From Halichondria panicea (lineage: Eukaryota > Porifera > Demospongiae > Suberitida > Halichondriidae), in NCBI RefSeq assembly GCF_963675165.1, contig NC_087389.1, positions 6,124,621 to 6,188,620 of the forward strand: DNA of 64,000 bases, in the 5' to 3' direction. A program made the position numbers and the translations under genes. The first letter of the stretch is position 1; each line of letters opens with the position of its first letter. Below, piece by piece: positions 733 to 14,237 of this stretch. Under the pieces are notes generated by a model, which was given only the letters and a program-made list of their open reading frames with translations, ran no database searches and was not told the DNA's origin.

Positions 733-872
733 GCAGTTTTATGTATTTTTCCTTTGTGTACTTTGTCCGATTTTATCACTTGCGTAATACTGATAAATAT
801 ACGAATTAATTCGAGCATGCGCATACAAGGTATACCAGGCGGCCGCTGTAAAGCGGACTTGAGTCGAGGCTA

Positions 873-969
873 CCGCTTCGCATAAGATCATGACGTTATA
901 GAAGAGGTAAGATCATGTGTCAGGTCACCTATGTATAGGGCTGGGATCAGCAATATTGATGGTAAAGGT
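873..969 (+). repeat. Left terminal inverted repeat of the KDZ element
   Basis: It begins ccgcttcgcat and ends ggtaaaggt. Internal blocks such as gatcatgacgttatagaaga and tgtatagggctgggat match the inverted right end base for base. The differences are small indels (one missing 'gc' and one 'c') and a substitution near the outer edge. Confidence 0.85.
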
Positions 970-1043
970 ATCGCATGTACTGGTGAAAAATGCCCTATGC
1001 AGCTCTACAATATTAATTAGCTTAGCTATATTAATTTACCACT

Positions 1044-4000
1044 ATGGCTGATAGATACCCACTAAGTGAGGATCCAAAAAAGACCTTAATAAGATTTTAT
1101 GAGGAGGGCATGCAAAGTAAGGGCAAAACCTGTGCATTATTTCATCTTCAGGCACAGAAGGCGACCAATCTCCCTTTAGACGTTGTTCTGGTAGGTTTAA
1201 TACCATAAATAGATCTAAATGGCATAATTAATGTCATGGGGTGAATGCTCTATGCATTCATGGAGCATTCACCCCATGCGTTGAGCTCAGTTGAGCTTCA
1301 TCGCACAGCAGCAAATGGATATAACTTTGTGAATCTATAAAGCAACGGTACGATCAGAAAACAGTTGCCTTCAAAAATCGTCTACAAGTTTCAAGTTGCC
1401 TATTATTTTCCAACTACTGTCTCATTAGCAGAGCAGTCTATGAAAGTGTCTAGTTCGCTCAAACAGTTCATTTTTGTGTCCACACACACACCAATCACTC
1501 TACCCCTGCTGCGCACACACGGGGTAATTACAGTGCCACCATAATTAAAGTACCATGTGAGCTCATAATTATAGCACTTTAATATTATCGTTTATACAGT
1601 ACAGGTACAGCTAGCTAGCTACAGTAAAACCTGTTCCAATGACCACTCTGATCATTACTATCCCTATGCTGATGTTTTTCACCTCCACCACTTCACACGT
1701 TAATTTGAGACGAGTGGTCTATAATAAAGGCCGCGATTCATTATGTTGTGTACATGATGTCAGTGGCAATATTATATTTATGTACATATTTATATGTGTA
1801 GAATTGGATTAGCAACTACAAGAGATCTCAGCGCAAAGGCGATAGCCCAAGAGTAGGGATTGCAAGCAGTGACATTCCTGGTGGTCCAGGACCACTAAAG
1901 AAAGGCAGATTCTTATCAATCCCCAATGCATATAATGTGCATGTTGCAGAATTCCTCAAGTCTGAAAGTCAGTATTACAAATACTTAATCTGGGTGCTAT
2001 ATTAAACGTTAAATCGTCAAAACTGTGCTGTGTGGCATTTTGTTTGCTACGGTGTTTTTCTGCTGAAGTGTATATATAGATAGCAATAATTAATATACCC
2101 CCCCCCCAATAATGTTCTAAAGTGACTACTATAGTTATACATCATCTGTTTCATGGGCTGCAATAATAATTTATAGATAGCCACAATAAGAATAAGCTTA
2201 AAATAATTCACAAACGTTATGTTGTTGTTTGCACTTGTGAAATGTGTATGTATACCCTTTAGGCTGTACATAATTATATTTTTTAACACTCAGATGCTCT
2301 TGCCCTGCCTACAACCAAAGAGAAATACTCAGCAGCCGCAGAGAAATGGCGATCTATGTCAGAGGAGGAAAAAGCAAACTGTAAAGAACGAATCGGAGAA
2401 TATTCAAAAAGCAAAGAAGTGACGTGGCCAAAGATTCAGAAAGTGATGAGACAGATGAATTCTGGGGTGAGAATTAATCTCTCATATATAGGCTAGGATT
2501 GTACACCAACTGCATAGTAACCAACTGAACATGTACTACAATGTCATGTATATGCAATCAAGTGAGGAGTGTTTTGTTAGCTTGTTAAATTATGGACTTA
2601 TAATTACAATACGTCGACATGTCTCTGATCAATGCAATGGACTCTTGCTCTCATTCAATGTACATTTGTATCAGTACACATTATATACACATGTTGCCTT
2701 TAAATTAATAAGTTGCACGGTCATGCATGCACTTGTAGTATATAGTCACCTGGATAAATGACGATAATTGATTACACAATGTAACTCTAAAACCTAAAAT
2801 GCAGGCACAATCACTAAGTGATGCGGCGGGAGTTGAGACAGTAACGCTACATTTTCATAAAGGGGAGGTGTTTACTGGAGGAAGTGAAAGAGGCGTACAG
2901 TATCTGAAAGAGCATCCAGTAGTGGAACTCTCGTTTACATCTTACTTTTATGAAAGTAAGCACTAGCTGTTTATACACAGTGTACATTTTGCTGAGTCAT
3001 GGTGTCTGGTTTATTCAGGTTGTCCTTATAATGAACTTTCATATGACTCAATTTTTGTATAATAGTTCTCCATTCAATTCCATAAAATTGTGTCTCCAGA
3101 ATCTGCCGAGGAAGAACTTCCTGAGTCCACTCAAAGAGCTACTTCTAAAAAGTTGGTTGAACAAGTGAAGAATATTTTCCAGCAGAAATATGGTGAGCTT
3201 AATTCTGTGTGCTTACATTAATTTGAGATGAGTTATATATAGGCCACGGTGATGGTGCGTATATAGGTAGCGGGGGGTGCTTGTTAGGCCTTGGGAGATT
3301 TTGTTAGCATGTACTCATGAGCATAATTTTAGAGAACTACATTTTCTGACTTTGACGGGTACAAATGAAAGCAAAAAGCAGTAAGTCATACCAGGAACAC
3401 TTAAATGTATGTGCTCGTGCTCCTGGTCATACAGTATCAGTCATTTGTTTTTTCAACAGCAACTTTATTTAGGCCTAGCACTGCTTTCATATTTGGATTA
3501 ATGCTCTATATACGCCAATAACCTGCCATGGTGTCATACAGGGGAGAGGGAAAGGGAGATATCCCTCCTCTGGCGACAATTTCCCCCCTAAATTTGCATT
3601 CAGGTACTAGTTGTATGACTGAGTGTCCATAGCCTTCAGGGTAGTATATTTAGGTGACTTTTCAAAGCATGCCCATTTCCCCTCTCTATACTTCAAAATC
3701 CTGTATGACACCCTGCCTGCTACACGATATTGTGTTCAGTCCCCCCAAAACACAGTCGTGCCTGGTGGTCTGGCAGTACGGCAGTACTATTCATCATGAT
3801 TGATGTATTTTCTATTACGATATCTAAACACACATAATGTACGTATAATAATATTATAATTATACTCCCCACAAACATGCAAGATTTACTTCTGGTGTAG
3901 CTATCTCTACGGGCCATATCGGAGATGTTCCATATGACAGTGAAGACATTGTAGTGAACCTGAAGGGCCTACCAACGAATATAGAGTTCAAAAGACCCTC

Positions 4001-4082
4001 GCTGTATGGAGTAAGGCAGCTTCAAACGATCATATCAAATAAATCAAAGTTTGAAATGCACGGTAAGTTTGAGGTTCATTAA
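1044..4082 (+). CDS. Transposon passenger protein: homeodomain-like helix plus HMG-box-like segment
   Basis: Six exons (1044-1190, 1802-1967, 2294-2466, 2805-2955, 3100-3192, 3901-4082) join in frame with GT-AG junctions to give about 303 residues. Residues ~10-60 contain VVLNWISNYKRSQRK, resembling a homeodomain-type recognition helix. The chain from ~85 to ~135 (AYNVHVAEFLKS, then KWRSMSEEEKANCKER) has the spacing of an HMG box. The C-terminal 150 residues (EVTLHFHKGEVFTGG region) are not recognised. The final exon reads through its last possible donor to TAA at 4080-4082, so another 3' exon is possible. The gene starts 75 bp inside the left repeat and converges on the transposase, so it belongs to the element. 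It is probably a sequence-specific DNA binder; the role is inferred. Confidence 0.6.
3529..3715. repeat. MITE family C, copy 1
   Basis: The segment is bounded by ggtgtcatacagg on the left and cctgtatgacaccctg on the right, as inverted ends. A second copy with the same ends is at 39192-39428. This one lies in intron 5 of the passenger gene. Confidence 0.7.
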
Positions 4083-5003
4083 TAGGGGTGGGTATATAGC
4101 TATTATGCTTTTTTTTGTATGCTCACAAAGAATTATTATGTGACTGTTACTGTCGATACTCAAAATTGCATGTACCCACCCACCCACCCCTAGTCCTAAT
4201 TAAGTGAAACCCCTAAATGCGGGACCGTAGAAAATTATGATTATAAGCTAGTATAGATGTGTCTTTGAACATGCACCCATGGACATTTTTCTTCCGCCTT
4301 GCAGTACGGAGTGTGCACACAGCGCTAAGGGAACATAACTACCAACAACCCGGTGCCGTAGAAACTCAAGACTGATATGCTCCAGATATATATATATATA
4401 TATATAGCTAATAGTCACCGTCTGTACTCGATCATGGTAAAAATGTAGATACGTATTCTTTTGCTTATAATTATATTGTTGATTGGTCATAATTATTTAA
4501 ATGATATAAATGAAAAAGCATAATAATTATCATTGTTGACCTATTATATCTAGCTCAGGTTAGTCTAAACGATTGTAAATCGTCCGTAAGCGTCCTTTGG
4601 TTTAAGTAAATAGCAAGTTAATGTACACAACAAGGCCGTAACCATGGCAATGGTGTTATCATCCTGATCCATTTTATGTATCTAATATGAATCCCGAATA
4701 AAAAGGTACACAATGAAACCATTACACAATGACAATGAATAGACTGCAATGCACCCTCATTTATGGCCTGTATTTTTGAAACGGCCTTACCAACCTGAGT
4801 AGGCTATAACAGGATCGTATATAGCTATAATGATGCATATGACTTTACAATTAAAAATGGCCAATAATTGCTATAATAAAATTAAATTGTATTGTGTAAC
4901 ACATGCATGTGGCTAATTGTCTTCAGGTGGAAGGTTGTCACATAACATAATTAAAAATTAATTATTATCAATGATATCAACAAATGTACACAAAAATTCA
5001 AAA
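4083..5003. other. Gap between convergent transposon genes
   Basis: The stretch is AT-rich with a short (AT)n run near 4387-4407. I see no open exon, RNA gene or inverted repeat. It separates the 3' ends of the passenger and transposase genes and probably holds both polyadenylation regions. Confidence 0.5.
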
Positions 5004-8000
5004 TCACACATTCATGTCATCACTATCTACTGATTCATCGCATGACTCCTGTTCCTCAGCCTCAAGCTTTCGTAACCTCTCAGTTCGTTCGAAGTGCTCT
5101 TCAGCAACACTGTGCCAATAATCAATATCAGTTTGTTGTTCTTCATCAAAGAAATCCGGTGAATAGAGATCACAAGTGTGGCCTTCATTAGGTAGTTCAT
5201 TAACGTCTACGTAATACAGTGCGAAAGTTTTTCGGAGTGTGAGTACTTTAACACAAAGCTCACGAATGCGGGAATTGATCATTCCACTTTTCCCCATTTC
5301 TTCAACAGTTTGCTCATATGATGGTGTCAATGGTAGAGAAGTAGTGAGTCTATCAATCCGATTATGCAGCATAGAAATGAAACGTTTCATTTCAAGTTTT
5401 ATTAAATCTATTTCCTCTCTGGCTCGCTGCTGAAGAAAATACTTGTTCATGGCATCACGTCTAACATTAGCAGGGATCAATATCACTTGAACTTGAAGAA
5501 ACCCAAAGGTGTGAATGAATGTTATTTACAATCTCCCAAGTGATTTCGCATGGCAATGATTCCTGTTCTAAATCACAGGAAGAGGCTGTTTTATTGTACG
5601 CAGTAATCGTCTTCTTTAGTTGTTTTGTGATGTTAGTGATATTTGCTGATATTTTATGGGTCACGCTATGTCCAGCTGTAGAGCCAACATAAATAATTTT
5701 AGTCACAAAGATCAACTGAACGTACCAGAGAATTTGGCTTTAACTAGTAGCATATACCATCGTTGCCGAGCAATGGACTGGATATCACCAAAGAGAATTA
5801 AACATTGTTTCACGCTTCGGCTTTAAAGGAATTCGTTGTACACTTTATCACCAGCTTTCCATCTCTCTAAAACACGATTTTCCTGTGTTGTAGTTGATGG
5901 TTCAATCTGTGAAAACATTATTATTAATGTGAACTTGCATGTACTTTAGTCACCTGATCAACTTTCGTGAGAATAGTGACAGTGCAATCACATCAGTACA
6001 AGATTGCAAATCACACCTACAGTTATGGGAAAAAATTTCGGCACATTGTGTTCTTTTTAGGATCTTACTGAATTGCCCAGAAGGACTGGAGATGCTCAAC
6101 GTAAGATTCTTGCCATACGTTTTCTACGTGTACTTGCATGTCTATTATAACAGAATATTATTTTAGCCACACATAATAATTATCTTTTACTTTCACTAGT
6201 TGTGCACCCTTTAGATTTGTCTTCAGCGTACCAACGCTTAATGTCATTCGAAGTGAATACAGGGTCTGTGAAACAAATCAACATTAATTTTAGAGATATA
6301 ATTATCATGAATATTTTATTATTGCCAAAAATTAATACCGCCACTAGAATCAGTCCTGAGTGCTTCCAGATCGCTTGAGGTACCCTGCACTAAGTTAACA
6401 GCTTTTTTCATTCTTTCAACCAGTATATCACCTATATATAATTATATACATGTACAGTGTAAGTTTATAGATAAACGAAAGTTACCTAGGTTCATTGAAG
6501 ACTGGTACGCAAAATGACCAAGAGCATCATTCAGAACATCTATCCTGTGGGATGGTCTCATCTCTTTTGTCATTTTAGAAAATCGTCTCATATAGCTCCA
6601 TAAACGCTCAAGAACCTCACCATCAGTCAGTCCAAAACCTTCTTGAAAACGAGGGCTGAATTCCAGCTGATGGTAAGGACAAAGTTAATTCAGTGAGTAT
6701 ATACACAACTTATCACCTGGCACTGTGTTACATGCCCATAAGAATGGAATACAGGAACTGCAAATTTAAATCGGTCTACAAGGGGGTTCTTCTTTCCTTG
6801 TTATGTAAAACATCAATGACAAATTAATGGTGAGGCTATTTTAATTATGTTTGTAACTAATACCTCAAGATGATGCTTCAACAGACACCCAATGTCATAA
6901 AGGAACAAAATGGAAATGTCACCACAGGAATAGAGTTCCAAAAGCTTATCCAGTAGGTACACAGCGTAGCCAATTCTGTAACAGTAATGAATTGTAGGGC
7001 TCATCCCCGTGACTAACTTGCCAAGGTTTTGCTAATAATTGTGCAACTTAAACCTGTCATACATGTTCAGAACACTTTTAATTAGAACCCTAGCTGGGCT
7101 ATAGTACACTGCAAAAAACTCACCTTTCTCCAAACTTGAAATTCAGAAATTTCAGAGGGGATTCATGTCTACATGCAAGTCCAGCAACTGCTGTCTCATC
7201 AAGTGCTGCGTATCTCTGTCGAGATCTTACAATACTCCCAGCAAGGAAATCATTACAGCCCTACAATAAGACATGAATAGCAACTGATCAACTCCGTACA
7301 TAATATATATATACCTTTTTAGAAGCTTTTTTTGTGCTCGAGTAAGAGTTCATGAAATTATCAACTTCTTTTTGGTCAACGAAGTACCTTCCTTGGTGAT
7401 GGGGATTCCTGATACTTACACCAGCAGCTTTTTTTCGGCAAAGACCAAACATTGCATCATAGGAGATATGAACTATGCCACCTCTTTCCCCATCCTAAAT
7501 GGAATCGAACACATAAATTATGCGACGTTAGTATTGAAATACCTACCTGTGGGCATGCAGGACACTTACAGAAATCATCTGGCTCAGTAGATATACCATC
7601 AAGTGTTTGTAACTTGAAGTGGTAGTATCTGTTGAATAGGAATTTTGATCTGAGATACCACGTATTAACAGTGCAAGTACCTAAACTCCTCAAATGAGTC
7701 AATTATGGCTGGATATACTTTTCGAAACTGTATTGAAAACGAAAGTATTGGATATGAAATTTAAAACACTGCCATACGTCAAACCTGTGGGTAATCTGGT
7801 CCTAACAAATTTGACTGGGTTTCCAAAGCTTGAGCAAAGTCCATTACAGCCACCTGACAATCTAGCATCATAATTTTCATCTTTAGCAACAGATCAGTCG
7901 AGAAAGCTAGTGTTGGTCTGGTTGGTGTTGCAGCCCACAGATTCAACCTTAACAACGTTAAAGGTTCAGCCTCGCAATGACAAAACACAACACACAATTG

Positions 8001-8612
8001 GTGTTGAATTCCTATAAACCATAAGATACAACACATACTCACATACAAGTTTTGAAAGTTACCTGTTGCATCAACACAGACAACATATTTCTTATACTGA
8101 GTAGGACATTCGTGGATGGTTTTGAGAATCAACGTAGATGGGTACTTAAACCGCTGGAATCGATTCTAAAGAGAAGCAAATACAATACAGATAAAAACAG
8201 ATATAACGTACGTTGATCCATTTCTCTGGTGTATGAAATGCATTCCCAAGGAAATCTTCATCACTGTGGTGATTAACCGTACAACTATCACATAAGAATG
8301 TAGTTGGACCACACTGTTTACATCGCACAGATGCCATCGCGACTTTACACCTATCACATACAGTTGCTGGGGGTATACAACTCATTGCTACAGTTGATGA
8401 GATCAAAGATGGTAAGAGATTATCCCATGCCGATGCTGCCTTTTCACGTCTTCGATAGTGAGCAGATGGTAAATCACCATCTTGACTTGGTTGGTCATCA
8501 TCTGAGCCCACACCATCAAGATCACATGGATCACTGCCATCTTGCAACTCATCATGATCTTCACTATTTTTATGCCTCGAGGCGTAGCCGCACGAGGGAT
8601 ACGGTAAAGCTG

Positions 8613-8650
<38 letters not shown>

Positions 8651-8963
8651 TGTGTGTCTGTGTGTCTGTTCCAGCTGTAACTGCTCAACGGTTGCAATGC
8701 GACGAAAACTAACAGCTTCTATAGGCTTCTAGCCACGTTCTCTTGGATTTTGATTCGTGGATTAGCAAACTAAAGCTTCTTTCTAGAGTTATGGCTAGTT
8801 TGACTCACATTGAAGGCTGTTGCAGTCTCTTCAGAATCTTTCATAGCATCATCTGTCCGCACAAACTTTCTATTCAACATATGAGTTAGCCTTGCACTAA
8901 AGCGCTAGCTTTTTGTTAGCTACAAGACTCAGAAAATACCTGTTAAAACAGCTAGCTAGCAGT

Positions 8964-9696
8964 TAGTTGGGCGGAGTCCAACCAACGCTTTGCTCATGTA
9001 GCAGTTTTGTTCCCACTGCAAGAAATTTGCAGCCCAATCAGATTGCTGCGTTCAAGTGGGAAACCTTACAGCTCAATTTAGCTGACAAGGCGAGCTGGGA
9101 CACTGTATTTCTCTGGAGAATGCAGAAACAGCTCCTGCTGGATATCTAGGCTACTAGAAAAGAAGCATAGTCTATCTTAGCATCTATGAATGAAGCTTGA
9201 ACAGTATGTATTAATTAATTAAAAGGACTTGTCTTTGTTTTAAGTTTTGTTGTGCTACCAATAAGATTAGATCATTAGTTTGGACAAAACCTGTGTTATG
9301 TATGCCTTCTTTGGTCTTCGAAAAGCTTCTCAGAAGCCTTGGGGTAGTCTTATAGCTGGCTGTACCTCTCCTTGTGCTAGATGTCTAACTATTATGAAAA
9401 AGTTTATTTCTGCCTGTACTAAATCTTATATTACAGGCTACAGTATTCTTCTACTTTCTCTAAGAGTCTGAGGTCTTTCTTGAATTCCAAAACAACTATA
9501 GCTAGATCCAGTCAGCTAGAATAGCCATCCAAATAGTTAATTGATTTCTTTATATCGCACCCCTGAGCCATGCGGTTGTCAGCCACCTAAAGATTAAACA
9601 ATATTCATACTCTGTCTCAAGTACCGGTGGAACAAAACTGCTACGTGTACTGATACCCAACCCAGAGCGCAGCGTTGGTTGGACTCCGCCCAACTA
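8964..9696. mobile_element. 733-bp element with 9-bp target duplication, nested in family A
   Basis: The ends are inverted: tagttgggcggagtccaacc on the left and its complement on the right (ending ccgcccaacta), with similarity continuing for roughly 50 bp. The 9 bp gctagcagt occurs directly before and after it (8955-8963 and 9697-9705). A 9-bp duplication with inverted ends is typical of Mutator-like elements, so this is probably a non-autonomous MULE. A 63-codon open frame inside shows no domain. Confidence 0.8.
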
Positions 9697-9814
9697 GCTA
9701 GCAGTAGCCATTTGTGAAATTGATCTCTTTGGACACACCCTTTAATTATTCCTATGGATGTAATGCGCATGCGCGCTCATTCCCCAGATCCAGATCCTCC
9801 TGGCAGAATCATAT

Positions 9815-10150
9815 TTTTCTTGAGGGCCTGGTAAGCCACAAAACACTACTATAGATAACAATATGTATGTACACAAGTCTTTTCTTCTTAAATATTATAA
9901 TTATACACTGCATGAACTACAGATCCAATTTTCTTCTTTCTTGAGGTCCTGGTATTAAAGCCACATAATACAACAATAGATGCATGTAATAAGTCTTTTC
10001 TTCTCAGTGACTTTATATAGATAAGCTAACTTTATGAAATAATTATGCACTTCCGCTTATAATTAATTAAAAACAAAATCTTCTTCTTTGTTGCTTCCTA
10101 GATCCTTGAGGTCCTGGTATAAGCAGCCACAAAACACAACAATGATACCA
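9815..10150. repeat. Threefold internal repeat of family A
   Basis: Three diverged units each carry a core like cttgaggtcctggtaa...gccacaaaacac, at about 9815, 9940 and 10110. Copy 2 of the family has only one such unit, so the array expanded in this copy. Confidence 0.6.
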
Positions 10151-10485
10151 TAATTATACAATTGCAAGTCAGTTTTAGACAGATTATTTTATACACTTTT
10201 TCCTCTTCTATACTTTCTCTTCTATACTTTTGAGCGAAAGCAAAAACATGGCGAGAGGCATTAGCACAGCGCCAGCTTGAACACTAGTGTTCACAGTTGT
10301 CCCGACAGGCTTGGCTAGCTAGTGGAGGATAGACCAGGGGTGTCTTAACTTTCTTGAACCTCTTCTTTCTCACAATACTAGTCGCCACAACTGGAAGTTT
10401 TCTTCTTTTCCTGAACTGGCTAGCCATCACTGCATGTACTGATCACTGCACTGAAGGTGGTAGGATCTAGATATCCCAATGACCG

Positions 10486-10585
10486 ACCTTTACCATCAAT
10501 ATTGCTGGATCCCAGCCCTATACATAGCGGTGACCTGACACATGATCTTACCTCTTCTATAACGTCATGATCTCATGCGAAGCGG
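10486..10585 (-). repeat. Right terminal inverted repeat of the KDZ element
   Basis: This is the inverted partner of 873-969 and ends at gcgaagcgg. The transposase ATG (10427) lies about 60 bp inside it, so the repeat may carry promoter sequence. Confidence 0.85.
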
Positions 10586-10720
10586 GTGATATTCTTGCGG
10601 CTGTGCACCTCTTAATCCTTTCTCCTTTCAACTCAACAACAGTTTTAGGTCACTGTCACCAGGAAAAAGCAAAGAACTGATCAGCTCTAAATCTATGCAG
10701 TCTAAGTCCAGACATTAGCA

Positions 10721-11910: not shown

Positions 11911-14237
11911 CTAGCTATAATTACGTGTGTAGCATCTGTTGCATGGGCACATTAAGTGGTAGGTACATGGGATGTCAGAGACAAAGTTTTGTTTGAAGTG
12001 CTCCCAGAAGTAATGGTGGAGTGTATTCTTTGTTGAAGTTAGTGGTGCGCTGATATCCATCAGCATAGTGGGCATCAAGTTCCATAACCTTGTGATACGA
12101 TTGAGGTAGAAGTGTCTGCTTGCGCTGTAGTGATTGGCTTGTACAGTGAGTTTGTTGTTGCAACTGAAGCGGGTGCGACCAGTAACGAATTTGATGTGAT
12201 CTCTTATGTTGAAGTTGTCCGAGGGTTCCTTTAAGTGACTTTACTAGAAACATTATGTCCTGTATTTCAAACCAGTACATTAGAGGTAGTAGCTTCAAAT
12301 CGGACAGCCTTGATCTGTATGAGCTTGAGTAATCATTGAGTATGAATTTGGTGGCTCTCCTCTGGATTCTTTCTAGTTTTTGAATGTCCTTGATCAAATT
12401 TGGTCTCCAGACTTGGGAGCAGTAGGTGACCTGGGATCTAACTAGGGTTATATATAACGATTTTTTTGTGCTGGTTTCTGATTTCATTGAAATCGTCCGT
12501 CGGATGAGGTTAAGAGCTCGGTAGGCCTTAGACGATATGAGGTTATAATGCAGTGACCAGGAGAGGTTGTTGGCTATGCACAAGCCTAGGTCTTTTTCTT
12601 TTGTAGCAAAGTTAAGGTGAGAATTGTGGATTGAGTAGAGTGTATTAGGGTTGTCTTCGTGCCAGCTAGGATGAGTTATGCGCAGCACATTACATTTTCC
12701 TTCATTGAGTTGCATGTTCCAAGTAGTGCACCAGGATGACAACTGGTTGATGTCTGTTTGTAATTCCAATTGGTCTTCCGTAGAAGTGATGCACTTTACT
12801 AGCTTTGTGTCGTCCGCAAATAGAAATGGATTGGCAGATGAGATGCACTCCGGTAGGTCATTGATAAAAATAATAAATAACAGTGGGCCTAGGATGCTTC
12901 CTTGCGGAACTCCTGACATAACTGGTAAGTAGTTGGATGGAGTATTAATAACACTTGTGAAGTGTATCCTGTCATGTAGGTACGATTTAAACCACAGCCA
13001 AAGAGGAGGGCCTGTGATGCCTGTCTTCCAAAGCTTTAGCAACAGCTCATTGTGTGGGACCGTGTCGAAAGCTTTCTTAAAATCTAGGTAAGTTGACATC
13101 TGTAGGTTTTCGGTTTTCTATGTTGTCAAAAACTTGGGAAAAGAATAGGATTAATTGAGAAAGACATGATCGGTTTCTTAGGAACCCGAATTGTTGGCAT
13201 GTTATCTTTGGTCTCACGAATGTAATAATTTTCTTGTAGATGATAGTTTCAAAGACTTTGGATATAATTGGGAGAAGAGAGATGGGCCGAAAGTTTTCTA
13301 CAAGATGGGGGTCGCCCTTCTTTGGGATTGGGCAGATTTTGTGGACCTTCCAGTGGGGTGGGAAAGTATGTGAAGATAGGCTAGAATTGAAAATGTGTGT
13401 GACTGATCTTGTGAGAGCGGTAGCACAGCATTTGAGGGTTGACGCATTTATATTATCGTGGCCTGGTGACTTTGTTGTGTCTAGTGAGGTGAGGGTTTCG
13501 TACACCTCAGACTCTTCTATAGAGATAGAGCTCAGTTGATAAGTGGGGGAGGGCATTTTGTCCCATGGAGGAAGTGTATAGTCACTTCTTGTGAATGTCG
13601 AGTTAAAGTATTTGTTGAATATTTCAGCAATCTGTCCAGTCTCTGTGATGATGGAGCCGTTGTGGATTATTGTTCTAGTTTGTGGACTTTTCTTACTTAG
13701 GTCGCGCAGATGACGGAATAGTTTACTTGGGTTGAACTTAAAGCATACTGCCAACGATTTTTCGTACTCAGATTTGGCAGTTGTCATTAGTTCCTGGAGA
13801 TGAGTAGACAAGTTAGATAGCCTTAGGGATGTACTCTCAGTGGGTTTGGATTTGTTTCTGCGTGTAAGCGTTTTGCAGCGATTGATAGTATGTCTCATTT
13901 CTGTGGTATACCATTTTGGGCTTTTTGACTTCTGAGAGTTAAATTTGGGCACAAATATTTCCTGTGCTCTTGAGATGATTTTTTCTAGATGGACTGAACA
14001 GGCAGGCTTGGGTTGGCAGATAAAAAACTCAGACATGGAATTAAAATTTGCTTTTTTAAAGTTGTAGTTGCTGGCCGGTTTGTCTTTAGAGAGTAGTTTT
14101 GGTGTTTTTAAGCCATCTAGTGAGAACGTGATAAGGAAGTGATCAGACATAGGTGAACAATTAGACGAGTCAATGTGCAGGTTGAGTATCCTAAAAGGGG
14201 TGGGGCTGGTCTTGCAGGTACACTCGTAGATCATCAA
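11911..14237 (-). mobile_element. 5'-truncated LINE (jockey/CR1-L2-like), defective
   Basis: Minus-strand frames encode the C-terminal tip of an apurinic-type endonuclease (SPMSDHFLITFSL) and then a reverse transcriptase with ENFRPISLLP, YLDFKKAFDTVPH, SGVPQGSILGPLLF and FADDTKL. Coding ends at a stop at 11911-11913 after a Cys-rich tail (CPCNRCY). There is a frame change at 13077-13099 and another near 12215. Most of the endonuclease and any ORF1 are missing at the 14237 end, as usual for incomplete target-primed insertion. No poly-A is seen. Confidence 0.85.

Follow-up and report, generated by a model that had tools for sequence, protein, structure and literature searches.

A KDZ transposon of the sponge Halichondria panicea carries a convergent second gene for a predicted multi-domain DNA-binding protein

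Does a second gene that lies inside a sponge KDZ transposon belong to the element, and what might its product do there? The question is raised by a 64,000-nt stretch of the Halichondria panicea genome (GCF_963675165.1, NC_087389.1, positions 6,124,621–6,188,620 of the forward strand), referred to here as the window. The termini of one element in the window enclose two convergent spliced genes, a KDZ transposase on the minus strand and a second, passenger gene on the plus strand. Comparison with other copies supports the two genes traveling as one unit, and supports the second gene as a recurrent part of KDZ elements in two families, named A (the family of the window element) and B. As judged from its sequence, the second protein joins a homeodomain to a probable HMG box, followed by a small unnamed domain and a single GTF2I repeat, and a role as a DNA-binding helper or regulator may reasonably be inferred. 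The second gene also occurs outside transposons, and the KDZ elements of this genome are not shown to carry it universally.

Results

Three collinear blocks pair the ends of the window element: 873–929 with 10529–10585 (57 nt, 98%), 929–948 with 10508–10527 (20 nt, 100%), and 948–969 with 10486–10507 (22 nt, 100%). The blocks are 98–100% complementary and define terminal inverted repeats (TIRs) of about 97–100 bp. A first-pass annotation, made from the letters of the window, had described matching ends of about 97 bp around a KDZ transposase and a second gene, and the TIR blocks bear this out. Its span of 873 to 10585 was correct as to the TIRs, while the right terminus lies at 10588. The left TIR, on the passenger side, occupies 870–969 (plus strand), and the right TIR, on the transposase side, occupies 10486–10588 (minus strand). 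The window right end reads CACCCGC on the minus strand, as do the left tips of all four other family loci read to the tip (C5, C9, C3 and C13:2355k). The window left tip reads CTACCGC, its first three bases being unlike the CAC of those loci. A chance origin of the inverted repeats was ruled out by their length and by independent copies elsewhere in the genome.

The 131-Mb assembly, whose contigs are labeled C1, C3, C5 and so on, was searched with the window left end. Eight matches were found at six loci: the window and C9 (both ends each), C3, C5, C13:2355k and C16:444k. The C9 copy is 8,027 bp from terminus to terminus, and GATGGCA flanks both termini as a 7-bp target duplication. The target duplication of intact copies, which the first pass had proposed to read, is thus 7 bp at C9; none is visible around the window copy, both ends of which were read. 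Copies C9 and C3 align with the window across both genes at ~95–97% and lack window positions ~8571–10287, which are therefore an insertion. Family A elements are about 8.0 kb long with CA...TG termini, and the window copy is 9.7 kb because of this nested insert. The C3 copy lacks its right end. Its second gene is disrupted by an inverted duplication of ~199 bp that spans passenger exon 4 (C3:1803544–1803859). C13:2355k is a heavily deleted old copy that retains pieces of both genes, C5:6616k retains ~443 bp at the passenger end, beyond which the sequence is unrelated, and C16:444k is a TIR match alone (~67 bp). Convergent pairing of the two genes is found at 3/3 family A loci with a KDZ-domain match.

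When the genome was searched with the second protein, the domain encoded by exon 4 found weak matches (E 0.5–0.6, 35% identity), most of which adjoin the KDZ family named B. One B copy on C10 is 7,877 bp long and runs from CAGGGGG... to ...GGGGTG. Both of its ends carry inverted repeats, and it is flanked on each side by AGAGATC, again a 7-bp target duplication. In C9 and in this C10 copy the 7-bp duplications are outside both ends, which places the two genes within the mobilized unit. A KDZ element merely sitting beside a host gene is ruled out by these two copies, one from each family. The second proteins of A and B are collinear over ~210 aa with 29% identity (E 7e-19, obtained with the first splice model of A). 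All 16 of the listed B KDZ loci have a second gene within 9 kb, always convergent; at C5:1444k, exon 1 alone was matched. The other A copies and the B loci rule out a second gene peculiar to a single copy.

Some B sequences were found apart from this pairing. At C7:1167k and C1:16703k, a B second gene and terminal region stand without a KDZ match in the surrounding 9 kb; these are possibly copies that lost the transposase. The B C-terminus matches by itself at C1:4162914–4163051 (51%) and C1:4212349–4212528 (39%), again without a KDZ match over that distance. The B counts are lower bounds, as only the best candidates were scored. A repeat of ~1.1 kb with 86-bp perfect inverted ends (C3:2611046–2612133) is inserted in the subterminal region of one B copy; 24 of the 41 matches in one genome search are to this repeat at other sites.

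Two further kinds of KDZ locus were detected. Family D comprises KDZ-like matches at C5:2009106 (48% identity) and C5:2031424 (51%), neither of which is among the Pfam KDZ matches of the genome profile search; at both loci a convergent GTF2I match lies ~1.6 kb away. Group C has five KDZ loci, of which C1:7267k, C1:11370k, C4:4763k and C8:1207k are 97–98% alike and C17:3841k was placed there by its match pattern alone. Further weak KDZ matches lie at C10:3936k, C10:6163k, C5:3815k and C4:4650k.

The second gene of the window was modeled from splice signals and conservation. It has seven exons, with GT/AG borders at 12/12 splice sites and consistent phases, and encodes 308 aa without a stop; the model is open in both the window and C9. 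All exons are on the plus strand. Exon 1 (1044–1190) encodes homeodomain helices 1 and 2, exon 2 (1802–1967) the homeodomain recognition helix and the start of the HMG box, exon 3 (2294–2466) the remainder of the HMG box, and exon 4 (2805–2955) the conserved unnamed domain. The GTF2I repeat begins in exon 5 (3100–3192) and ends in exon 6 (3901–4062), and exon 7 (4927–4961) carries the stop codon. The first splice model had placed the exon-6 acceptor at a non-AG site; moving it to the canonical site at 3901 improved the GTF2I and C16 matches. The convergent plus-strand gene of the first-pass annotation was confirmed, with seven exons in place of six. Its homeodomain-like segment is supported by profile search and its HMG-like segment is a probable HMG box, whereas the GTF2I repeat had been missed.

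The homeodomain is best detected with a three-sequence profile built from A, B and the stand-alone C16 homolog described below. Against PDB its best match is 2da4 (E 6.7e-8), followed by DUX4 and LMX1A. The PDB title of 2da4 is "hypothetical protein DKFZp686K21156", which we take to be the human HDX homeobox. Single sequences gave E 0.0027 for A, 3.2e-5 for B and 0.05 for C16, the last behind a non-homeodomain chain at 0.0013, and Pfam returned no homeodomain match in the A and B pieces. The HMG profile matched a whole TFAM chain in PDB at E 8.5e-6, with 0.0012 for the best single stretch and 7.2e-5 for a single TFAM box chain. Pfam HMG_box_2 is below its cut-off in A (0.0061) and B (0.0021), and three unrelated families (DUF3106, Catalase-rel and ADAMTS_spacer1) rank above it in A. 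Together these matches make an HMG box in the second protein probable. The exon-4 domain is conserved in A, B and C16. It is predicted to fold as helix-strand-strand-helix-helix with a mean predicted local distance difference test score (pLDDT) of 85, the five models ranging from 52 to 85. A profile search of PDB found no relative, the best match being an unrelated chain at E 0.16; as a lead only, we take the domain to resemble the N-terminal region of TFII-I. The GTF2I repeat is a single stretch that matches Pfam PF02946 at E 9.1e-10 (39.2 bits, cut-off 27) and TFII-I repeats in PDB at E 3.3e-6. Pfam matched the second protein to neither a TET/JBP domain (at E <= 1) nor a transposon-protein family, and found no enzymatic chromatin domain in the A or B proteins.

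The hand-assembled transposase model matches Pfam KDZ (PF18758) at E 6e-38 (131 bits, cut-off 26.6), CxC2 at E 8e-11 (42.5 bits, cut-off 27) and CxC1 at E 1e-8. The KDZ domain in the window is also above cut-off in the genome-wide profile search, and the minus-strand KDZ transposase of the first-pass annotation is thereby established. The start codon is at 10427 and the stop codon ends at 5004. Exon 1 (8212–10427, with its 3′ border at 8212 set by eye) is followed by nine internal exons with AG/GT borders. Splice borders and domain matches define exon 2 (8063–8165, CxC region) and, in the KDZ domain, exons 6 (7315–7494), 7 (7124–7260), 8 (6864–6975) and 10 (6486–6666), the last of which holds the domain end. 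Exons 3 (7785–8011), 4 (7681–7727), 5 (7547–7628) and 9 (6717–6796, KDZ domain) were defined by splice borders. The C-terminal exons were taken as one block (5004–6440). The nested insertion of ~1.7 kb (8571–10287), absent from C9 and C3, splits exon 1, and the frame from 10427 stops at the insertion edge (TAG, 10284–10286). The window transposase is thus broken by the insert. The C9 transposase has one in-frame stop and one frame break, and for these reasons no A copy read has a plainly intact transposase. The insertion itself contains a CA/TG repeat as well as an internal inverted repeat of 35 nt (8961–8995 and 9665–9699), and its part 8636–8942 resembles sequence near the C5 locus at 74%.

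A relative of the second gene stands alone on contig C16 (364653–366566). The model is complete, with eight exons, canonical borders and 386 aa, and has the same domain order as the A second protein. Pfam detects its GTF2I repeat (E 8e-9) and no HMG box. By BLASTP, collinear stretches match the A protein at E 3e-10 and 1e-7 with 25% and 43% identity. No KDZ match is listed on contig C16, so the second gene also exists outside transposons. No second copy of the C16 gene was found by a protein search of the genome, and in a DNA search in which 40 of 470 candidates were scored, only a simple repeat in one intron matched. As compared by eye, A, B and C16 have common intron places and phases in the homeodomain (phase 0), in the HMG box (1) and at the flanks of the exon-4 domain (0 and 1); A, C16 and D share a phase-1 intron that follows KY in the GTF2I repeat. 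Given these shared introns, a single spliced ancestor most likely gave rise to both the transposon genes and the stand-alone gene. A genome search with PF02946 at E <= 1 gave eight matches: three A elements, two D loci, C16, C14, and a sub-threshold fragment at C9:2409k. The C14 match (C14:3875831–3876001) is at the Pfam cut-off, and no KDZ match is listed on that contig.

The first-pass annotation had also proposed a check for purifying selection on the passenger, and this is not demonstrable within family A or B, the copies being too alike. Exon and intron sites were counted in family A with the first exon-6 border. Between the window and C9, 6/946 exon and 32/2901 intron sites differ. Between the window and C3 the counts are 26/927 and 64/2913, with no exon deficit; part of the C3 exon excess lies in its inverted duplication. 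The old copy C13:2355k differs from the window at 28/587 exon and 235/2051 intron sites, which is an exon deficit, in a gappy alignment. In family B, the ratio of nonsynonymous to synonymous polymorphism (pN/pS) for KDZ pieces is 0.56 (22 nonsynonymous and 12 synonymous changes at 15/16 loci), with too few changes to be read further. The main evidence that points to long-term constraint is the conservation of the second protein between families and with C16.

Two neighboring open reading frames lie outside the element, both on the minus strand. One (256–738), near the transposon left end, has a CRLC...YICRACTNKF cysteine pattern, presumably resembling a ZAD zinc-finger N-terminus. The other (11975–13117) encodes 380 aa, is reverse-transcriptase-like with a FADDTKLV motif seen by eye, and is probably a non-long terminal repeat (non-LTR) element.

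Discussion

The first-pass annotation had asked whether the two genes always occur together and had counted copies with the ends but no passenger, or a passenger gene alone at non-transposon loci, against its proposal. The genes do occur together in the A loci with a KDZ-domain match and in the listed B loci; the group C loci gave no passenger match, the downstream side not having been read, and C5:6616k is a remnant of the passenger end. Passenger-like sequence outside transposons was found in part, as the diverged relative on C16.

Several results weigh against a conserved accessory gene that acts at the transposon ends. The B second protein lacks the GTF2I repeat and has a different C-terminus in its place, for which structure prediction was unusable (pLDDT 35). 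The GTF2I match at the first D locus only narrowly passes the Pfam cut-off (27.1 against 27), and that at the second is below it (21.9); two hand-joined exons within the 800 bases read at the first locus score 27.6. None of the five group C loci has a second-gene or GTF2I match within 9 kb, the downstream side not having been read, and a KDZ element may therefore do without the second gene, although group C may also have a diverged partner. The pN/pS of B second-gene pieces is 0.45 (9 nonsynonymous and 6 synonymous changes at 5/18 loci), a figure without power. Of the statistics of the motifs near the ends, described next, exact repeats as long as those observed arose in 19/500 dinucleotide shuffles for B and one-mismatch repeats in 13/500 for A, and the motif pair at the transposase end is imperfect in both families, A having one exact copy there.

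Start codons in A and B are 161–217 bp inside the termini, just inside the TIRs. In the window these distances are 174 bp for the second gene and 161 bp for the transposase; the ~80 bp given earlier as the distance of each gene from its terminus holds when measured from the inner TIR edge. The passenger-side TIR contains a candidate binding motif in duplicate, TAAGATCATG in A (two copies 25 bp apart) and GGTCAGCAYTGG in B (two copies 28 bp apart). In the window, the exact 10-nt copies are at 883–892 and 908–917 (plus strand), and the sole exact copy in the right TIR is at 10541–10550 (minus strand). Exact repeats of equal length arose in 1/500 shuffles for A, and one-mismatch repeats in 2/500 for B.

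CACTA/En-Spm elements encode TNPA and TNPD and have repeated motifs near their ends. By analogy, we tentatively favor, at somewhat less than even confidence, a TNPA-like second protein, an accessory or regulator that would bind the motifs duplicated in the TIR, control both genes and help pair the ends. Because each gene begins a short way inward of the same inverted repeat, much the same DNA precedes both genes and forms both ends, and one TIR-recognizing protein would therefore meet both promoters and both ends. The second protein would bind the duplicated motif near the end, TAAGATCATG in A and GGTCAGCAYTGG in B, its HMG box would bend DNA and so aid end pairing, and its C-terminal part would contact the transposase or the host transcription machinery. 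The same start positions fit an anti-silencing or activating transcription factor that would open chromatin or drive transcription at the TIR promoters and take no part in cut-and-paste. This is rather unlikely but a serious contender: the domain architecture is that of a transcription factor, a stand-alone homolog exists, and the same logic has been proposed for TET/JBP genes in fungal KDZ elements, which are said to aid transposon escape (PMC12730594). The second protein differs in having no enzymatic chromatin domain detected by Pfam, and the duplicated motifs sit in the TIR itself, which fits end recognition equally well.

The second gene could also be a host gene that was captured and has no role in transposition, either hitch-hiking or acting on the host. 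The homologous stand-alone gene with the same introns, the group C elements without such a gene, and the window and C3 exons, which differ no less than the introns (26/927 against 64/2913 sites), are consistent with this. It is improbable given that two families with second proteins only 29% identical both retain the gene, in the same place and orientation at all the listed B loci, and that the window copy keeps the second-gene frame open next to a broken transposase, though this copy is recent. Several DNA-binding modules would also suit a targeting factor that steers integration to chosen chromatin or sites. That reading is very unlikely, since the target duplications GATGGCA and AGAGATC have no evident common core by eye and the loci are scattered over many contigs.

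As to origin, the second gene probably derives from a host gene for a transcription factor that was captured by an early KDZ element, and the C16 gene would be a surviving relative of that host gene. Capture is preferred because the combination of homeodomain, HMG box and GTF2I repeat looks like a host transcription factor. Transfer from transposon to host is the less favored alternative. It is quite improbable that the GTF2I repeat, a module otherwise familiar from vertebrate TFII-I factors, arose or spread in a KDZ accessory gene, with C16-type animal genes and, distantly, TFII-I as domesticated descendants. The C16 gene offers a direct comparison point, and the element raises the testable question of whether a GTF2I module has passed from host transcription factors to transposons or the other way.

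The second protein resembles the TFII-I family (GTF2I, GTF2IRD1 and GTF2IRD2) in its GTF2I repeat, which passes the Pfam cut-off and matches TFII-I repeats in PDB. TFII-I family proteins carry several GTF2I repeats, whereas the second protein has a single one, accompanied by a homeodomain and an HMG box and encoded inside a transposon. GTF2IRD2 is described as a fusion of a TFII-I family protein with a Charlie8-like hAT transposase (PMC10641963). The likeness is a GTF2I repeat tied to a DNA transposon; the difference is that GTF2IRD2 is a hAT fusion in a host gene and the sponge gene is separate and inside a KDZ element.

The likeness to CACTA/En-Spm elements lies in the two-gene layout of a transposase and a putative accessory DNA binder and in the repeated motifs near the ends. 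The transposase is of another kind, and the second protein has no Pfam match to transposon proteins. A further testable question is thus whether an accessory end-binding or regulatory protein takes part in KDZ transposition.

The KDZ domain, the CxC2 cluster, the multi-exon transposase, the TIRs and the target duplication are all shared with the KDZ superfamily (PF18758), and the homeodomain/HMG/GTF2I gene sets the sponge elements apart. Among the titles and abstract openings listed, none describes a KDZ element with such a gene; Iyer et al. 2014, Bohne et al. 2012 and Repbase were outside this scope. The portions consulted of the work on Zisupton in Pristionchus (PMC9297572) and of the Chlamydomonas work (PMC8226300) mention no second gene of this type, and a word search of PMC12730594 found none of the words sponge, Amphimedon or GTF2I. 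Cryptococcus KDZ elements are reported with TIRs of 139–241 bp and duplications of 4–8 bp (PMC12810828), and because of this range, duplication length alone cannot place the sponge element. Zisupton is given 8-bp duplications (PMC12730594, 2025), compared with 7 bp in 2/2 sponge copies with both ends and the duplication readable, which is weak evidence. Two fungal Kyakuja families in the same source have 7-bp duplications and 5′-CA..TG-3′ termini, lack TIRs and carry TET/JBP (PMC12730594). The sponge elements are like them in duplication length and termini and differ in having TIRs of ~100 bp and no TET/JBP match. A KDZ lineage that has kept its own gene for a predicted multi-domain DNA-binding protein across divergent families would add a second and different partner beside the fungal TET/JBP.

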